The position numbers were made by a program, and so were the translations under genes. 64,000 nt of DNA from Castellaniella denitrificans (lineage in GTDB: Bacteria; Pseudomonadota; Gammaproteobacteria; Burkholderiales; Burkholderiaceae_B), in contig NZ_JAPWHE010000005.1 in NCBI RefSeq assembly GCF_027214045.1, forward strand, positions 124,001 to 188,000, in the 5' to 3' direction. Within the stretch, counting starts at the first letter, position 1. The number at the start of each line of letters is the position of its first letter. Of this stretch, positions 29,858-37,998 are shown one piece after another. The notes beneath the pieces are model-generated. The model saw only the letters and a list, made by a program, of their open reading frames with translations. It had not been told where the DNA came from and made no database searches.

Positions 29858-29965
29858 AGGCTATTTGCATCCAAAAAAATTGTGTTGTATATTTCTGTCT
29901 TCGCTGAACGACGCGCCAAACAACGCAGCGGATCAGCGAAGACAATAGCATACACGTTATGCTGT

Positions 29966-30050
29966 GCCCAGGTGGCGGAATTGGTAGACGCGCATGGTTC
30001 AGGTCCATGTGCCGCAAGGTGTGGAGGTTCGAGTCCTCTCCTGGGCACCA
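29966..30050 (+). tRNA. tRNA-Leu (anticodon CAG)
   Basis: An 85-nt class II tRNA: acceptor GCCCAGG (29966-29972) pairs with CCTGGGC, then A and an encoded CCA. The D arm is GGCGGAATTGGTAGACGC, the anticodon loop TTCAGGT, a long variable arm follows (TGCCGCAAGGTGT), and the T arm is GGAGGTTCGAGTCC. TATGCT just upstream (29958-29963) is a plausible -10. Confidence 0.97.
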
Positions 30051-30097
30051 CTTCTCTTGATCGGGAAGTCCAATTCAGTACGATGTCCTCTGGCATC

Positions 30098-30142
30098 AAA
30101 AAGCGAAACCCGCATAGACCCAGTCTTGCGGGTTTTTGCTTT
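30098..30142 (+). terminator. Terminator after tRNA-Leu
   Basis: AAACCCGCA and TGCGGGTTT pair around a 12-base loop (tagacccagtct), with further outer complementarity (AAAGC/GCTTT). A T5 run is inside the right arm. It is placed about 50 bases after the tRNA. Confidence 0.82.
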
Positions 30143-30387
30143 GCGCATGGCACATCGCGCGCCGCCCTGGCGCCCAGGCCCGCCAGCATCGTGCGTCTAT
30201 TGACCTTGCCCCCATGTTAAGGATTACGCTGTAAAAGTCCATTCGGGTTTTGGCGTTCCTGCTGTGACGAATGCCCGGCCTGCAAGACACTGTCGCGGCT
30301 TGAACCCGGGGATTGCCGCGCCGATCAAATACCTTCTCAAGTAGCGAAGTCGGCCCCGGGTCTTGTTTGACAGTCGGGAGATATTCG
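30143..30387 (+). other. Intergenic region carrying a copper-type promoter and a long leader
   Basis: About 245 bases with no supported gene on either strand. It holds the MerR-family promoter at 30200-30230. If transcription starts near 30237, the transcript has a 150-base untranslated leader before the ATG at 30388. I see no obvious riboswitch or ORF in the leader. Confidence 0.55.
30200..30230 (+). promoter_or_regulatory. CueR-type (MerR-family) promoter with 19-bp spacer
   Basis: A -35 TTGACC (30200-30205) and a -10 TACGCT (30225-30230) are separated by 19 bp, the over-long spacer typical of MerR-family activated promoters. Inside is a dyad CCTT (30204-30207) ... AAGG (30219-30222) with a C-rich centre. 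Aligned without gaps to the E. coli copA promoter, as I remember it, both ends of the 31-base element agree well: TTGACCTT, the CCC core, AAGG, TTA and CT. CueR or a close relative, sensing Cu(I), would be expected. No merR/cueR gene is in the window. Confidence 0.7.
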
Positions 30388-30810
30388 ATGAATACCAGGA
30401 TGATAGTGATGGCGTCCTTTGCCGCGCTGGCGATGGGCGTGGGCGTGCCGGGTGTGGCGGCGGCGCATGGCCAGGACCAGGCGGGCGGCGCGGGCATGAT
30501 GCGGGCGGGGCAGGGACCCGGCCCGATGGGGCAGAGGGGGGATATGGACGACATGATGGGTGTCCTGCCGGACGGTGTGGCCGCAGGCCCTCGTGGCGGC
30601 GGCATGCCGGGTGGCTACGGCATGCCGGGTGGCGGCAGGATGGGCTACGGCGTGCTTGGCGGCGGCATGATGGGCGCGTGCCCCGTGATGGCCGGCGCGG
30701 GACTGGATCCCGGGACAGCGATGCGGATGCGCGGCGAAATGATGCGGGCGATGGGGGATATCCTGGTCAAGTATGCCGACAAGATCCCGGCTTCGCCGCC
30801 CAAACCGTGA
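30388..30810 (+). CDS. Exported Met/Gly-rich small protein, probably copper-responsive
   Basis: A 140-residue protein with a signal peptide (MNTRMIVMASFAALAMGV, cut near VAAAHG). The mature part has very high Gly and Met content, with clusters such as AGMMRAGQG, DMDDMMG and GGGMMGACPVMAG, a single Cys, an HG after the cleavage site and an amphipathic C-terminal helix (RGEMMRAMGDILVKYADKI). Clustered Met in an exported protein suggests Cu(I)/Ag(I) binding, and the CueR-type promoter upstream supports that. The ATG at 30388 has GGGAG nine bases before it and starts the signal peptide; an earlier TTG (30313) has neither. I know no named family for it. Confidence 0.72.
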   Translation: MNTRMIVMASFAALAMGVGVPGVAAAHGQDQAGGAGMMRAGQGPGPMGQRGDMDDMMGVLPDGVAAGPRGGGMPGGYGMPGGGRMGYGVLGGGMMGACPVMAGAGLDPGTAMRMRGEMMRAMGDILVKYADKIPASPPKP

Positions 30811-30894
30811 CGGCGATCATGCACTGATCCCTGATCCCGCCCGGGGTGGCGGTTGCGAGTGTCGGTCAGACCGTTTCCGAAGTAGTACCATCGC

Positions 30895-30937
30895 AAGCTT
30901 GGACGCCGGTCGTCTGATCGGCGCGAAGGCCAAGCTT
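30895..30937 (+). other. Nested stem-loop in the ydfG leader
   Basis: AAGCTTGG (30895-30902) pairs with CCAAGCTT (30930-30937), and inside it CGCCG (30904-30908) pairs with CGGCG (30919-30923), around a loop GTCGTCTGAT. The structure ends 11 bases before the ydfG ATG and just ahead of its AGAGG ribosome site, so it could be the terminator of the upstream gene or modulate ydfG translation. Confidence 0.5.
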
Positions 30938-30948
30938 CCAGAGGACTT

Positions 30949-31719
30949 ATGAACGATTCCACACCCCACCCCATTGCCCTCGTCACCGGGGCTTCCGCTG
31001 GTTTCGGTCGTGCGATCAGCGAGCGTTTCCTGCGGGACGGCTATCGGGTGATCGCCGCCGCGCGCCGGATGGAGCCGATGCGGGAACTGCAGCGCAAGTA
31101 CGGCGACGCCGTGTTGCCGGTGTCCCTGGACGTCCGCGACGAACAGGCGGTCGTCTCCCTGAGGGAATCCCTGCCGCCGGCCTGGCGCGACATCGACGTG
31201 CTGGTCAACAACGCCGGCCTGGCCATGGGCAAGGAAAAGGCCCATGAGGCCGATTTCCAGGACTGGCGGACCATGATCGACACCAATGTCACCGGCTTGG
31301 CGCTGGTGACGCACGCCTTCCTGCCGGGCATGGTCGCCAGGAAGCGCGGGCTGGTGATCAACATCGGCTCGGTGGCCGGCAAATATCCTTATCCGGGCGG
31401 CAACGTCTATGGCGCCACCAAGGCCTTCGTGGCGCAATTCAGCCGCAACCTGCGCGCGGATCTGATCGGCACGGGCGTGCGGGTGACGGACGTGCAGCCG
31501 GGGCTGGTCGGCGAGACCGAGTTTTCGCTGGTCCGCTACAAGGGCGACAAAGAACGGACGGCGGCGATGTACGCCGGCGCTCACCCGCTGCGTCCGGAAG
31601 ACATCGCGGAAACGGTCGCCTGGGTGGCGTCCCTGCCGCCGCATGTCAATGTGAACGCGATCGAGGTGATGCCGACTTCGCAATCGTTCGCCGCCTTGAC
31701 CGTGACCCGGGACGAATGA
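30949..31719 (+). CDS. ydfG: NADP-dependent 3-hydroxy acid dehydrogenase YdfG-type SDR
   Basis: A 256-residue short-chain dehydrogenase. The cofactor loop is TGASAGFG at about residues 13-20, an AARR after the second strand favours NADP, NNAG is at about 86-89, and the catalytic S-Y-K lies in INIGSVAG and YGATKAF. The C-terminal half (PGLVGETEFSLVRYKGD, NVNAIEVMPTSQSFA) matches YdfG, which oxidises serine, threonine and 3-hydroxy acids, and reduces malonic semialdehyde as part of the Rut pathway in E. coli. It is monocistronic, with stem-loops on both sides. Confidence 0.9.
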   Translation: MNDSTPHPIALVTGASAGFGRAISERFLRDGYRVIAAARRMEPMRELQRKYGDAVLPVSLDVRDEQAVVSLRESLPPAWRDIDVLVNNAGLAMGKEKAHEADFQDWRTMIDTNVTGLALVTHAFLPGMVARKRGLVINIGSVAGKYPYPGGNVYGATKAFVAQFSRNLRADLIGTGVRVTDVQPGLVGETEFSLVRYKGDKERTAAMYAGAHPLRPEDIAETVAWVASLPPHVNVNAIEVMPTSQSFAALTVTRDE

Positions 31720-31757: not shown

Positions 31758-31875
31758 AGTGATACTTTGATACATTCATGTGCTATTCTGAAACTCTCCA
31801 TCATTTGTGGGGAAGATCAGGGTGCGATGCTTGGTCACGAACGGGGATGCCCGCATATGGCGATGGGCGGTTCTC

Positions 31876-32724
31876 ATGCGCGGATCGCTGTTGGCCGCGC
31901 TCTTCGTGTGCGCGTCCGTGTTTCCGGCGCATGCGGCGCAGCGGACCCTCGCCTATTTTCCCGTCGGCCCCATCTACGAATATCGCTGGAAAGTCCTCGA
32001 ACTGGCGCTGGATCATGTCCGGCGATCCGAAGGCGTCGCGATCGATCTGCGTCCCTTCGACGAGGACGTCACCCAGAACCGGGCCGTCAGTCTGCTGGAA
32101 GCCGGGAAAATAGACGTCATCGCGCTGGGCACCAATGACGAACGCGAATCCCGCATGCTGCCGATCAAGATCGACATTTCCCGCGGGACCGTCGGCTACC
32201 GGGTCTTCCTGGTCTCGTCGTCCGACCAGGAGCGGATCGCGGGCATGGACGACGAGGCGTTCAGGACGGAACTGACCTTCGGCCTGAACAGCCAGTGGGC
32301 CGATGTGCCCGTCATGCGGGTCAACGGCTATACCGTGCTGACCTCCACCGATTACGAAAGCCTGTTCGGGATGCTGGCCGCGCACCGTTTCGACGCGCTG
32401 CCCCGGGGAATCGGCGAGGCGGCGGTCGAACTGGCCGCGCGCCGGAAAGCCTATCCCGGGTTGACCATCGAAAAGACCCGCGCCCTGTTCTTCCCCTATC
32501 CCATCTATTTCTGGGTCAACCGCCAGGATGCGGAGCTGGCCGGGCGGATCGAGCGCGGCTTGCGCGCGGCCCTGGCCGATGGCTCCTTCCGGAAGCTGTT
32601 CATGACCTATCATGCGTCGATGATCGAGGACCTGGCCCGCAGCCATCGCCGGGTGATCCGTCTGGACAATCCCCTGCTGCCACCGGGATCGGCGGAAATC
32701 GATACGAAATGGTGGTGGCGTTGA
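31876..32724 (+). CDS. Periplasmic substrate-binding-like sensor protein
   Basis: A 282-residue protein with a signal peptide ([22 protein letters not shown]). The mature part has the periplasmic type II binding-protein fold ([20 protein letters not shown]..., [47 protein letters not shown]), as in solute-binding proteins of ABC transporters and in sensor kinases. No permease or ATPase gene is near. The next two genes are a hybrid kinase and a c-di-GMP protein, so it most likely presents a ligand to the kinase. The start is uncertain: GTGs at 31807 and 31822 would lengthen the lead; the ATG at 31876 gives the cleanest signal peptide. An extended -10 (TGCTATTCT) lies at about 31781-31789. Confidence 0.78.
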
Positions 32725-32740
32725 CGCGCGGGCGGCCTGG

Positions 32741-35700
32741 ATGAAAACGGGATCGACCCTGGCCAGGCGACTGCTGAGGTCCATGCTGCCCTGGTATCTG
32801 CTGGCGACCATCGGCCTGGTGGCGGTGCAGCTGGGCATCCAGTACGTCGGCATCAGCCGGGCGATCGCGAACGATCTGGCTTCTCTGGGACGCACGGTCG
32901 AACCCGCCGTGACCAATGCCGTCTGGGAACTCGACCGGGATCAGATGACCCGGGCACTGGACGGTGTGCGGCAGAACGCGATCGTCTCCGGCGCGCGGAT
33001 CGAATCAGCCAAAGGCGACATCCTGGCCGACAGCGGCTGGTCGCGTGAATCCGACGAAACACCCGATCTGGCGTTTTTCGTGCGAGGGCGTTCGGCCGCG
33101 ACGCCGCTGCGCCATGCCACGGCGGATGGCGCGATGCAGTTGCTCGGGGTGCTGTGGCTGCATACCGCGCCGTCCGTCATCTGGGACCGGCTCAAATACG
33201 GTTTCGCGGTCGCCTTGCTCAATTCGGTCGTTCTCAGCGCGCTCTTGTGGCTGCTCTTCGTCTGGACGATCCGGCGGCGCCTGTCGGATACGCTGACGCC
33301 CGTCGTGTCCGCCGTGAAGAACTGGCGCTTCGGCGACGACGATGCCCGGCCGGAGCCTTTGGTTTACCCGTATGACGACGAGTTGGGCGAACTGGTGGAT
33401 GCCTTCCGCGAAAACCGCCAGAAGCTGTCGGTTTCGATGCGGGAACTGGACACCCTGAATCACGACCTCGAATCCATCGTCTCGGATCGTACCCGGGAAT
33501 TGCGGGAGGCCAAGGAAACCGCCGAATCCGCCACGCGGGTGAAATCCGATTTCCTGGCCACCATGAGCCACGAGATCCGTACGCCGATGAACGCCATCCT
33601 GGGGATGCTGTATCTGGCGCTCAAGGAAGACATGCCGGCCGGCACGCGGGGCCGGTTGATCAAGGCCCAGGGCGCCGCGCAGTCGCTGCTGGGCATCATC
33701 AACGACATCCTGGATTTTTCCAAACTCGAGGCCGGCAAGCTCGCCGTCGAGCAGGTCGAGTTCGACCTGGAGCTGGTGCTGGAGCGGCTGGTGGACGCGG
33801 TCGGCCTGCAGGCCGAGGCCAGGGGCATCGAGCTTTTGATCCGGCATGATCCGGCCATTCCAACCCTGCTGGTGGGTGATCCGCTGCGCTTCGGGCAAGT
33901 GCTGCTCAACCTGTGCGGCAACGCGGTCAAGTTCACCGAGCAAGGCGAGGTCGAGCTGGCCTTGCATTGCCTGGGGCGGGACGAGGACGGCGTCAGGATT
34001 CAGGCTTGCGTGCGCGACACCGGCATCGGCATGACGACCGACCAGGCCCGGACCCTGTTCCAGAAATTCACTCAGGCAGACCAGTCCACGACGCGCCGCT
34101 ATGGCGGCACGGGTCTGGGCCTGGCGATTTGTCGCAGTCTGGTGGAACTGATGGGCGGGCGCCTGTGGGTGGAATCCTCCGCGCCGGGCAAGGGCACGAC
34201 GATGTGCTTCACGCTTCGGTTGGCCGTGGCGCGGCAGGCCCGGACCCAGCAGCGCCAGCTGCTGGAACGGATCGGCTCCAGACTGCGGGGCTGGCGTGTG
34301 CTCGTCGTGGATGACAATCCGGTGTCGCTGGAGATCCTCTCCGAGATGTTGCTGTTTTTCCAGCTCGACGTCGGCACCGCCAGCCACGGCGCACAGGCCC
34401 TGACCATGCTCCGGCAGGCCAGCGGCCAGCCGTACGACCTGGTGCTGATGGATTGGCGCATGCCGGGCATGCATGGCGACGAAGTCGCCCGGCGCATCCG
34501 GGCCGACGCTGCCATCGCGCACCCGCCAAAGATCGTGATGGTCACCGCCTACGGTACCGAGGACGTCATGCGCCGGGCGGCCCAGGCCGGCATGGATGGC
34601 TTTCTGATCAAGCCGGTCTCGCCTTCCTCGCTGCTGGACACGGTGCTGTCCGTGCTCGGCCAGGGCCGGCTGCCGGGGCAGGACATCGAGGCCACAGCAG
34701 CGGTCGCGCAGGCGGGGGGCGGCGGCCTGGCCGGCGCCCGGATCCTGCTGGTCGAGGATAACGACATCAATCGCGAGTTCGCGGTGGAACTGCTGCGCGG
34801 CGAGGGGGTTTCGGTCGACGAGGCCGCCAACGGACAGGAAGCCGTGGAACGGGTCCAGCGCAAGCACTACGACGCCGTGCTGATGGATATCCAGATGCCT
34901 GTCATGGACGGCCTGCAGGCGGCCCGCCGCATCCGCCGCCTGGGCGGCGGGTCGGGCGGGGCGCGTTTCGTCGCGTTGCCCATCATCGCCATGACGGCGT
35001 TGGCCATGGCTTCCGATGCGCAGGCCAGCCAGGAAGCCGGCATGAACGACCACATCACCAAGCCGATCGATCCGGACCATTTGCTGACGACGCTTGCCCG
35101 CTGGGTGAGGGTGCCCGGCGACCGGGTGGCCACGCAACCGACGGCCTCCGGCGGCGAATCCGGTCGCCTGCCCGACGACTTGTCCGCCCTGACGCATCTG
35201 GACGCCGCCGACGGCTTGCGCCGTATCGGCGGCCGGGCGGCGCCCTATCGCAAGCAGTTGCGGCGCTTCGGTGCGCAATACGGCGGCGCCATCGTCGAAT
35301 TGCGGCGCCTGCTGGCGCAAGAGGACCTGGCGGCGGCCGAGGCGCATTGTCATAGCCTCAAGGGCGTGGCCGGCAACATTGGCGCGCGCGCACTGTTCGA
35401 CCGGGTGACCGAGATCGACCGCCTGCTGAAACAGGGCCTGCGGCCCGATGCCGCGTTGCTGGACACGGCGCAGTCGATGCTGGGGAATGTCCTGGCGGAC
35501 ATCGAGTCCCTGGCGGACGACACGCCGCCGCCATTGCCTGAGGCGCCGCCCTCGCGCGCGGCGCTGCGCGATCTGGTCGAGCGGCTGAAGACGGCGCTGG
35601 GATCCGACCTGGGGGCCGTCGAGGCCCTGATCGACGAACTGGTTCGCGGCGTGGCTGGCACCCCCCTGCAGCCCGCCGTCCAGGAAATCGCCGACCGGAT

Positions 35701-35773
35701 CGACCGGTTCGAACTCGACGCCGCGCTGGCGTTGCTGGCATCCCTGCCCATTGCGCCGGAGACCGCGTCATGA
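32741..35773 (+). CDS. Hybrid sensor histidine kinase (HK-REC-REC-HPt)
   Basis: A 1010-residue protein. TM1 is at about residues 16-36 and TM2 at about 150-172, with a periplasmic sensor of about 110 residues between them. A HAMP-like and coiled-coil linker follows. The HisKA phosphoacceptor is H277 in [13 protein letters not shown], and the HATPase domain (about 375-500) has [15 protein letters not shown] and [12 protein letters not shown]1 has D571 in [11 protein letters not shown]2 has D716 in [11 protein letters not shown], and an HPt domain has H871 in [10 protein letters not shown]. This is a complete BarA/ArcB-like phosphorelay in one protein. It starts 16 bases after the binding protein and its stop overlaps the next start (ATGA), so the three genes form one operon. 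Confidence 0.95.
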
Positions 35774-37998
35774 GCCTGACCCCGCACGAAACCGCGTCGC
35801 CAGCCGGTGACGGCGGCCGCCCGAGGCTGCTGATCGTCGATGACGCTGCCGTCAATCTGCATACCTTGATTGGCATGTTCCGGGATGATTACGCCATTTC
35901 CGCCGCCACCAGCGGCCTCAAGGCCATCGAGCTGGCGCGGCGCGATCCGCGGCCCGACCTGATCCTGCTCGACATCCAGATGCCCGACATGGACGGTTAC
36001 GAGGTGCTGGCGGCCCTGAAACAGGACGCGGCGACGGCGGACATTCCGGTCATCTTCGTGACCGCCCTGGCCGAGGCGGCGGATGCGGCGCGAGGTCTGC
36101 TCATGGGGGCGGCGGACTACGTCACCAAGCCCATCAACCCGGAGCTGTTCCGGGTCCGGGTCAGGAACCAGCTGGAACTGACGCGCTACCGGCGGATGCC
36201 GGCGGCGTTCGAACTCGTGCCGCAGTCCGGGGACATGCCGCCGCCGACCTTGCTGGTGGTGGACGACGTGCCCGAAAACATCCACGAGTTGCTGGTGGCC
36301 TTGCGCGACGAGTTCCGGATCCTGGTCGCCAGCGATGGCATCCGTGCGCTGGAAATCGTCCAGGGGTCGGCGCCGCCCGACCTGGTGCTGCTGGACGTGG
36401 TGATGCCCGGAATGGACGGCTACGAGGTCTGCCGGCGCATCAAGGCCACGCCGGACGGTCAACGCATCCCGGTGGTGTTCGTCACGGTGGTCGACGACAC
36501 GCGCGACAAAGTGCGGGGTTTCGCCCTGGGCGCGGCCGATTACGTGACCAAGCCCTTCGATATCGAGGAGGTCCGCGCCCGGGTGCGCGCCCATCTGGAA
36601 CTCGCCCGCTTGCGCCGTTTCCTGGAGGACCTGGTGGCGCAGCGCACCGCCTTGCTGCGGGTGAGCGAGGAAAAATACCGCATCCTGACGCATCGCGACC
36701 CCCTGACCGGCCTGCCCAACCGGGTGCTGTTCGCCGAACTGCTGGCCCATTCCATCCAGATGGCTCAGCACGCCGCCATGCATTTCGCGCTGCTGTGCCT
36801 GGACCTGGACAAGTTCGCCGCTATCAACGAGACCCTGGGGCACGGGCTGGGCGACCGGGTGCTGGTCCAGGCGGCGCAGCGGCTGCGTGGCCTGCTGCCG
36901 GAACGGGACGCGCTCGCGCGGGTCGGTGGCGACGAGTTCTATGTCATTCTGGACCGTGACCAGGGCGAACGGGGCGTCGCCCTGGCCGCGCAGCGCATGC
37001 TTGATGCGCTGGCGGCGCCGTTCGCCCTGGACGGCCAGACGGTCTACGTGAGCGCCAGTATCGGCGTGGCGCTCTATCCCGAGGACGGCGCCACGGCGGA
37101 CGAACTGCTCAGCAGAGCGGATGCGACGCTGCACCAGGCCAAAGCCGCTGGGCGGGGCAGCCTGCGGTTCTTTTCGCCGGAGATCATGCTGCGCGCCAGG
37201 GAACGCCTGTCGCTCGAAGCCGAGATGCGTCGTGCGCTGGAGCGGGGGGAATTCCGGGTTCATTACCAGCCGCAACTGCACCTGAACGAGCGTGCGGTGA
37301 CGGGGCTCGAGGCGCTGGTGCGCTGGGCGCACCCCGAGCGCGGCCTGCTCGGGCCGGGCGCGTTCATTTCCATGGCCGAGGAAAGCGGCCTGATCGTGCC
37401 GCTGGGGAACTGGGTCCTGCGGGAAGTGGGACGCCAGATGCGCGCCTGGACCGACGAGGGTGCCGCGCCCGGCTACGTCGCGGTGAATCTGTGCGCGCTG
37501 CAGCTCGGCTACGGGGATCTGGCCGATTCCGTGCGCGATGTGCTCGAGACGAACCGGCTGGCACCCGGTTGCCTGGAACTGGAAATCACCGAGAGCTGCC
37601 TGATGGCCGATCGCGGCCGCGCCATCGACACGCTGGAGACCCTGCGCGGCATGGGTGTGCGCCTGTCCATCGATGATTTCGGCACGGGCTATTCCTCCAT
37701 GTCCTATCTGCAGCATCTCCGTGTGCACCGGCTAAAGATCGACATGACGTTCGTCCGGGATCTGGAGACCAATCCCGGCAACGCGTCCATCGTCACGGCG
37801 ATCATCGCCCTGGGCCACAGCCTGGATCTGGAGATCGTGGCCGAGGGGGTCGAGACGCCGGAGCAACTGGCCCATCTCCGGCGCCTGGGCTGCGACCTGG
37901 TACAGGGTTATCTGGTCGGGCGTCCCGTGCCCGCGTCGAGGGTGCTGGACTTGCGCTTCGGTCCAGGCCATCCTCTGGTGGGGATGCTGCCCGCCTGA
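35770..37998 (+). CDS. REC-REC-GGDEF-EAL c-di-GMP response protein
   Basis: A 742-residue protein. Two receivers come first (phosphoacceptors D68 in [11 protein letters not shown] and D209 in [11 protein letters not shown]), joined by a short linker. Then comes a GGDEF domain with intact VGGDEF at 385-390, but the inhibitory-site arginine is absent (P377-E-R-D380 instead of RxxD). An EAL domain follows, with EAL at 514-516 and the catalytic loop DDFGTGYSS at 635. It can in principle both make and degrade c-di-GMP; which activity dominates cannot be read. It has no DNA-binding domain. It is the likely output of the hybrid kinase, with translational coupling at the ATGA overlap. Confidence 0.95.

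Follow-up and report, generated by a model that had tools for sequence, protein, structure and literature searches.

The stretch of DNA under analysis, hereafter the window (64,000 nucleotides, C46:124001-188000 of genome G000), carries a putative promoter at 30200-30230, with a tRNA-Leu gene (29966-30050) on its 5' side and, on its 3' side, a gene for a Met/Gly-rich protein that is predicted to be exported (Table 1). No sigma-70 promoter with a spacer of 16-18 bp turned up in our scan of 29900-30950, and a hairpin 3' of the tRNA-Leu gene (stem 30116-30135) was discarded as being at chance level, with one found versus 0.8 expected. The promoter elements named by an earlier sequence-only reading, namely, TTGACC and TACGCT around a 19-bp spacer with a CCTT...AAGG dyad, were all confirmed upon re-reading. 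Its description of a 140-residue protein with Met-Met clusters and a Cys was equally accurate: there are four Met-Met pairs, a single Cys (residue 98) and a single His (residue 27), and the 113 residues after residue 27 include 17 Met and 32 Gly.

Table 1. Features of the Met/Gly gene and its upstream region, numbered from the first letter of the window.
Feature	Position	Strand	Basis
-35 hexamer TTGACC	30200-30205	+	sequence reading, genome pattern match
CueR-type dyad CCTT-N11-AAGG in the 19-bp spacer	30204-30222	+	sequence reading; recurs 5' of homologs
Spacer, 19 bp, TTGCCCCCATGTTAAGGAT	30206-30224	+	sequence reading
-10 hexamer TACGCT	30225-30230	+	sequence reading
Scar of GDCCVxC gene	30267-30299	+	28 of 33 bases shared with the C. 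defragrans relative (L018)
Scar of 80-aa gene, 3' end and stretch up to the Met/Gly gene	30309-30384	+	alignment
Ribosome-binding site CGGGAGA	30375-30381	+	sequence reading
Gene of Met/Gly-rich, predicted exported protein, 140 aa, stop included	30388-30810	+	ATG at 30388; open frame; dN/dS
Predicted signal peptide, residues 1-26	30388-30465	+	cleavage after AAA by eye; alignment; model helix 3-17
Codon of nearly invariant Cys 98	30679-30681	+	alignment
Conserved C-terminal helix, residues 108-130 (PGTAMRMRGEMMRAMGDILVKYA)	30709-30777	+	alignment and model

The promoter site and its candidate regulator

CueR promoters combine a 19-bp spacer with the dyad ACCTTCC-N7-GGAAGGT, according to excerpts of two published accounts (PMC1526738, PMC10187127), and variants of the dyad with altered inner letters are described in the part of the second at hand (PMC10187127). 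The window site has the 19-bp spacer and a close variant of this dyad, in which the outer half-sites are correctly spaced (CCTT at 30204-30207 and AAGG at 30219-30222, with 11 bp between them) and the inner letters, GC and GTT, deviate. It thus resembles the sites of the CueR regulon genes copA, copZ, cueO and Salmonella cueP in its spacer and its ACCTT...AAGG dyad (PMC1526738, PMC10187127, in the same excerpts), the last of these genes being regulated by CueR according to a further account, also seen in part (PMC13201067). Unlike these genes, however, the window gene encodes none of the copA, copZ, cueO or cueP products.

How often such a site occurs was assessed over the 3.1 Mb genome with a 17-letter pattern, made of the fixed letters of the -35, the dyad and the -10. 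The dyad alone was dropped as evidence, as ACCTT-N11-AAGG has 10 genome matches versus 18 for the reversed control. With up to three mismatches the full pattern has five matches, and its reversed control likewise five. First, the only match without mismatches is the window site, a score that is partly circular because the pattern was written after reading this site and those of its homologs. Second, the places with two mismatches lie 5' of the copA ATPase gene (C3:11102-11132) and, on contig C33, next to a gene of the MerR type. Third, three mismatches are found at C50:95885-95915 and at C3:11010-11040 (minus strand), the latter stopping some 30 bases short of the CopZ-like gene (HMA domain) that runs divergently from copA. 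Neither the copA site nor the copZ-like one had a part in writing the pattern, and the right half TGTCAAGGNTTA is common to the copZ-like site and most window-type sites. Recurrence near homologs, described below, is stronger evidence than the zero-mismatch score of the window site. As a side observation, C3:11010-11132 (L006) has the copA ATPase and CopZ-like genes in divergent orientation with one CueR-type site each.

The genome also encodes a candidate for the regulator. The CueR model TIGR02044 matches in five places, and the best of these, a frame at C3:13477-13851 that overlaps the end of the copA ATPase frame, scores 145.7 bits, slightly below the curated cut-off of 147.4. The best PDB matches of this protein are chains named CueR (E about 1e-25), with which it shares the C-x7-C pair and an aligned Ser before (A/S)(D/E)VK. 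In CueR, the C-x7-C pair and this Ser bind and select +1 ions.

The five matches to the CueR model, and the C33 site that stands beside one of them with only two mismatches, leave room for a site that answers to another MerR-type regulator, of the Cd/Pb/Zn or Hg kind, and not to copper. We regard this as very improbable, since the TAG...CTA core of the C33 site is absent from the window site, and window-type sites share TGTCAAGGNTTA with the copZ-like site and stand in copper clusters. The C33 site itself (C33:255140-255170 of genome G000; L002, L172) is a strong palindrome, ACCTTGTAGTCGCTACAAGGT, before the MerR-type gene, and is presumably a CadR/PbrR-type metal switch. The assignment of 30200-30230 as a CueR-type promoter, already proposed by the sequence-only reading, is supported by its architecture, its likeness to the copA and copZ-like sites, its recurrence 5' of homologs and the CueR-like gene in the genome; from these we infer binding by CueR and induction by copper.

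Homologs, recurring sites and copper genes

The Met/Gly protein has matches in 26 of the 150 genomes searched, its own included, and in 14 of 97 genera; two of these, L035 and L038, are weak matches that include a TGA. A site with at least 15 of the 17 letters, on the same strand and 187-584 bases 5' of the homolog, was found at 10 of 30 loci, the window's own included. All 17 letters are present at seven loci (L016, L017, L018, L022, L023, L043 and L044), 16 at L042, where the distance is counted from the first matching piece, and 15 at L019 and L024, and the spacers of these sites are divergent between loci. The other 20 loci have no site so placed, some of them having little upstream sequence (L025). 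The copies at L020 and L021 lie about 1.8 kb from CopR/CopS-type genes.

A second, named collection comprises 76 loci with a homolog, which we take to be nearly all from Burkholderiales; the remainder are one Nitrosomonas, one unclassified Proteobacteria MAG, and three short matches in Rokuibacteriota/Acidobacteria MAGs. In these 834,748 bases the pattern has 6 sites at 17/17, 11 at 16 or more, 25 at 15 or more and 46 at 14 or more, as compared with means of 0, 0, 0.055 and 0.985, and maxima of 0, 0, 2 and 8, for 200 letter-scrambled patterns run over the same loci. The control stretches, that is, twenty 12-kb stretches (240,020 bases) taken at round coordinates from ten relatives, have no site at 14 or more. 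The 25 sites with at least 15 letters occupy 20 of the 76 loci. Nine of them, in nine loci, lie 100-1000 bases 5' of the homolog on the same strand, and 16 lie elsewhere; many of these point the same way and precede copA ATPase or cueR genes at a distance of 2.6-4.2 kb 5' of the homolog, as in Paralcaligenes and Cupriavidus among others. The pairing of promoter and gene that the sequence-only reading had suggested looking for in related genomes does occur, at the 10 of 30 loci given above, one of which is the window's own. Conservation of the dyad, on which that reading had made its proposal depend, holds among close relatives but fails in part among distant ones, where 67 of the 76 named loci have no site at 100-1000 bases, several of these having one farther upstream before a copA ATPase or cueR gene.

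The neighbourhoods of the homologs were compared with the same control stretches using ten copper-cluster markers, named by library search (CopA oxidase TIGR01480, CopI-like, GDCCVxC NF041374, copper/silver response regulator, CopB, DUF411, cytochrome c, and HMA and E1-E2 ATPase domains, among them), with identity thresholds that were fixed after a first look at the loci. At least one marker is present in 56 of the 76 named loci versus 1 of 20 controls, at least two in 37 versus none, and a core marker (copA ATPase, CopA oxidase, CopB, CopI or CueR) in 47 versus 1. A strict marker is absent from 20 of the 76 loci, including two near relatives that are laid out like the window (L092 and L094) and several loci of Paraburkholderia and Caballeronia, which have a weak DsbD-like match at most. 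At the window locus itself, no copper gene was recognised among the neighbours examined. Arsenic-type genes were seen by eye near the C. defragrans homolog, and an arsenic-related role was dropped because copper markers dominate. Since many relatives have copper-resistance neighbours, the Met/Gly protein is probably a copper-binding protein of an unnamed kind.

Searches of plasmids by tblastn gave nothing for the window protein at E <= 1e-5, and 28 records for other homologs at E <= 0.01 (18 in another run, of which all but four cover no more than about a third of the query). The gene is hypothetical or unannotated throughout the rows listed, namely, the best 20 of the 28 records and all 18 of the other run. 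On annotated plasmids of Caballeronia grimmiae and Burkholderia vietnamiensis G4, it appears as a hypothetical protein near an RND efflux pump.

A longer operon and constraint on the gene

At three loci, G006 C52 (L053), G008 C54 (L054) and C. defragrans G001 (L047), the site leads a run of four genes on a single strand, which encode, in this order, a GDCCVxC protein, an 80-aa protein, the Met/Gly protein and a cytochrome c. The order is the same in G006 C42 (L051), with the GDCCVxC gene reduced to a tail; in G070 (L048) the first three genes are present and that cytochrome is missing, and in G060 (L052) the 80-aa gene alone precedes the Met/Gly gene. CueR sites have been predicted before cytochrome genes in Vibrio as well (PMC1526738, in the excerpt at hand). 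The 80-aa protein (L054:8111-8350 and homologs), encoded between the GDCCVxC and Met/Gly genes, has an apparent membrane stretch and no Pfam or NCBIfam match. Nothing related to the GDCCVxC protein was found in the portions of the open-licence PMC literature at hand.

The leader between the window promoter and the Met/Gly gene retains traces of the first two of these genes. For the 80-aa gene, the alignment scores 45 against L018, where the shuffle maximum is 18, and its score is reached by none of 1000 shuffles for L019, L022 and L043 and by one of 1000 for L044. For the GDCCVxC gene, none of 1000 dinucleotide shuffles reaches the score against L018, the one locus on which this scar rests, as 65 of 1000 do so against L019, and L022, L043 and L044 give nothing. 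On this sequence evidence the window gene is what remains of a longer operon, with traces of the lost genes in its leader, a feature that the earlier reading had missed. It follows from the scars that a deletion would have joined the Met/Gly gene, formerly the third of four, to the promoter, bringing it to within 160 bp.

A deletion of this kind may also leave behind a promoter and a gene that are of no further use. That the window locus is such a decaying remnant would suit the reduction of two of the four operon genes to scars, the absence of the cytochrome c gene and of recognised copper genes nearby, and the near relative DR_1_1.49, in which the -35 is mutated to TTGGCC. The Met/Gly middle of the DR_1_1.49 protein is also shorter. 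The dN/dS of the Met/Gly gene, 0.31 against the UBA6218 ortholog (dS 0.149, dN 0.046), is also higher than the 0.10 of the neighbouring SDR gene. However, the open frame is kept in three genomes, and the 14 synonymous and 14 non-synonymous differences from UBA6218 depart from neutrality (binomial P = 0.003), such that the protein looks to be under constraint, as judged by its codons. The promoter differs from that of UBA6218 at 2 of 31 bases, with no fixed letter hit, yet the leader is similarly close (142 of 156 aligned bases identical, 14 different, and one gap), and the promoter is therefore not clearly more conserved than the leader. Taken on these points, decay is very unlikely. The downstream SDR gene has its best C. 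defragrans match at 82% identity, and no Met/Gly homolog is present in the 1.5 kb before that match.

The Met/Gly protein and its proposed role

The sequence-only reading knew of no named family for the protein, and this was upheld. The window protein has no Pfam, NCBIfam or PADLOC family match, the family profile has no match among PDB sequences, and we recognised no description of the family in the portions of the open-licence PMC literature at hand. Of the 23 aligned sequences, one matches Metal_resist PF13801 weakly (E = 0.014) and one matches an NCBIfam model that is unrelated (E = 0.081); no match to Metal_resist at E <= 0.1 was seen for the window protein or the remaining 21 homologs. 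The AlphaFold2 model, built from the 23 sequences, is mostly of low confidence, the middle included (mean pLDDT 53), and shows a helix in the signal peptide (3-17) and, after it, a single helix at 108-130 (pLDDT about 80), a point that also bears on the comparison with Metal_resist.

This C-terminal helix is the best-conserved part of the protein, while the Met/Gly middle varies in length. Residues M1, A24, M95, M114, M118, M119, I125, K128, Y129 and A130 are invariant, A25, M57, M84, M85, M94, C98, M112, E117, A121 and M122 are nearly so, and the motif MHGEMM is present in many homologs. From their spacing, and by our own reading, M114, M118, M122, I125 and Y129 would lie on one face of the helix. 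Such a distribution of conservation might be expected if the protein were induced by copper without binding it, the Met-rich chain being a sacrificial antioxidant, or the helix binding a partner (a cytochrome c, the 80-aa protein or an efflux pump) with the Met/Gly part as a linker. The invariant I125, K128, Y129 and A130 of the helix are no metal ligands, and a cytochrome c gene often adjoins the Met/Gly gene (16 of the 76 loci). Invariant Met 95, 114, 118 and 119 and the nearly invariant Cys 98 are, on the other hand, as expected of Cu(I) ligands, which is not decisive, and we consider a non-binding role unlikely.

By comparison with known systems, the Met/Gly protein represents a family without a name in a type of system that is already known. 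SilE, in the parts of the account at hand (PMC5008109), is a disordered periplasmic protein with His and Met motifs that serves as a silver sponge and folds on Ag+. The window protein resembles SilE/PcoE in being small, exported by prediction, Met-rich and, again by prediction, largely disordered, and in the metal-cluster setting of its homologs. Unlike SilE with its His and Met motifs (PMC5008109, same parts), it has one His, at residue 27, and unlike SilE/PcoE it combines a CueR-type promoter with a conserved C-terminal helix and a Cys. The window protein matches no Pfam/NCBIfam model, and the 23 homologs have no match at E <= 0.1 to whatever SilE/PcoE models these libraries may include. CopM of Synechocystis, as described in part of PMC4335983, is a copper-induced periplasmic Cu(I) binder that alone can confer resistance; it is set apart from the window gene, on the basis of this description, by its control through the CopRS two-component system (PMC4335983) in place of a CueR-type promoter.

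The reading that we favour, and hold to be likely, is that of a copper-detoxification gene under CueR, whose product would be induced through CueR and act in the periplasm as a sponge or chaperone for Cu(I)/Ag(I), functioning like SilE or CopM but assigned to neither family. Rising cytoplasmic Cu(I), or Ag(I) or Au(I), would activate the CueR-like protein whose gene follows that of the copA ATPase, and this regulator would switch the promoter on by way of the dyad in the spacer, which at 19 bp is longer than normal. The signal peptide would then direct the Met/Gly protein to the periplasm, where Cu(I) or Ag(I) could be held by the Met/Gly-rich chain together with the lone Cys and the Met residues lining the C-terminal helix; the Cu(I) so held might be buffered, or handed to efflux or oxidation. 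This would add a periplasmic Met-rich protein to the predicted CueR regulon, and assign a likely function to a family that has no name and is now annotated as hypothetical, or left unannotated, in the plasmid rows listed. It would also provide a small test case for how Cu(I)/Ag(I) could be held by a chain that is rich in Met and Gly but has one Cys and hardly any His.

It is tempting to speculate further, even if the odds are rather against it, that this undescribed family, found mainly in Burkholderiales, forms with the GDCCVxC (seleno)protein, the 80-aa protein and the c-type cytochrome one CueR-switched module, in which periplasmic Cu(I) uptake would be coupled to electron transfer, for Cu(I) oxidation or protection of the cytochrome. 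If so, the window would preserve a reduced form of this module, from which only the Met/Gly protein was worth retaining.

Two minor observations complete this description. First, in Nitrosomonas eutropha Nm 57 (L141:6058-6210), a 50-aa frame seems to fuse a cytochrome c-type N-terminal membrane stretch to the C-terminal helix of the family, and Pollutimonas (L144) has the same marker layout; the helix alone may have persisted. Second, farther downstream in the window, at 31807-37998, three genes stand in a row, namely, one for a periplasmic binding-protein-like product (weak SBP_bac_3 match), followed by those for a hybrid histidine kinase of 1010 aa, which has receiver and Hpt domains, and for a 742-aa receiver-GGDEF-EAL protein, which probably form one signalling operon.
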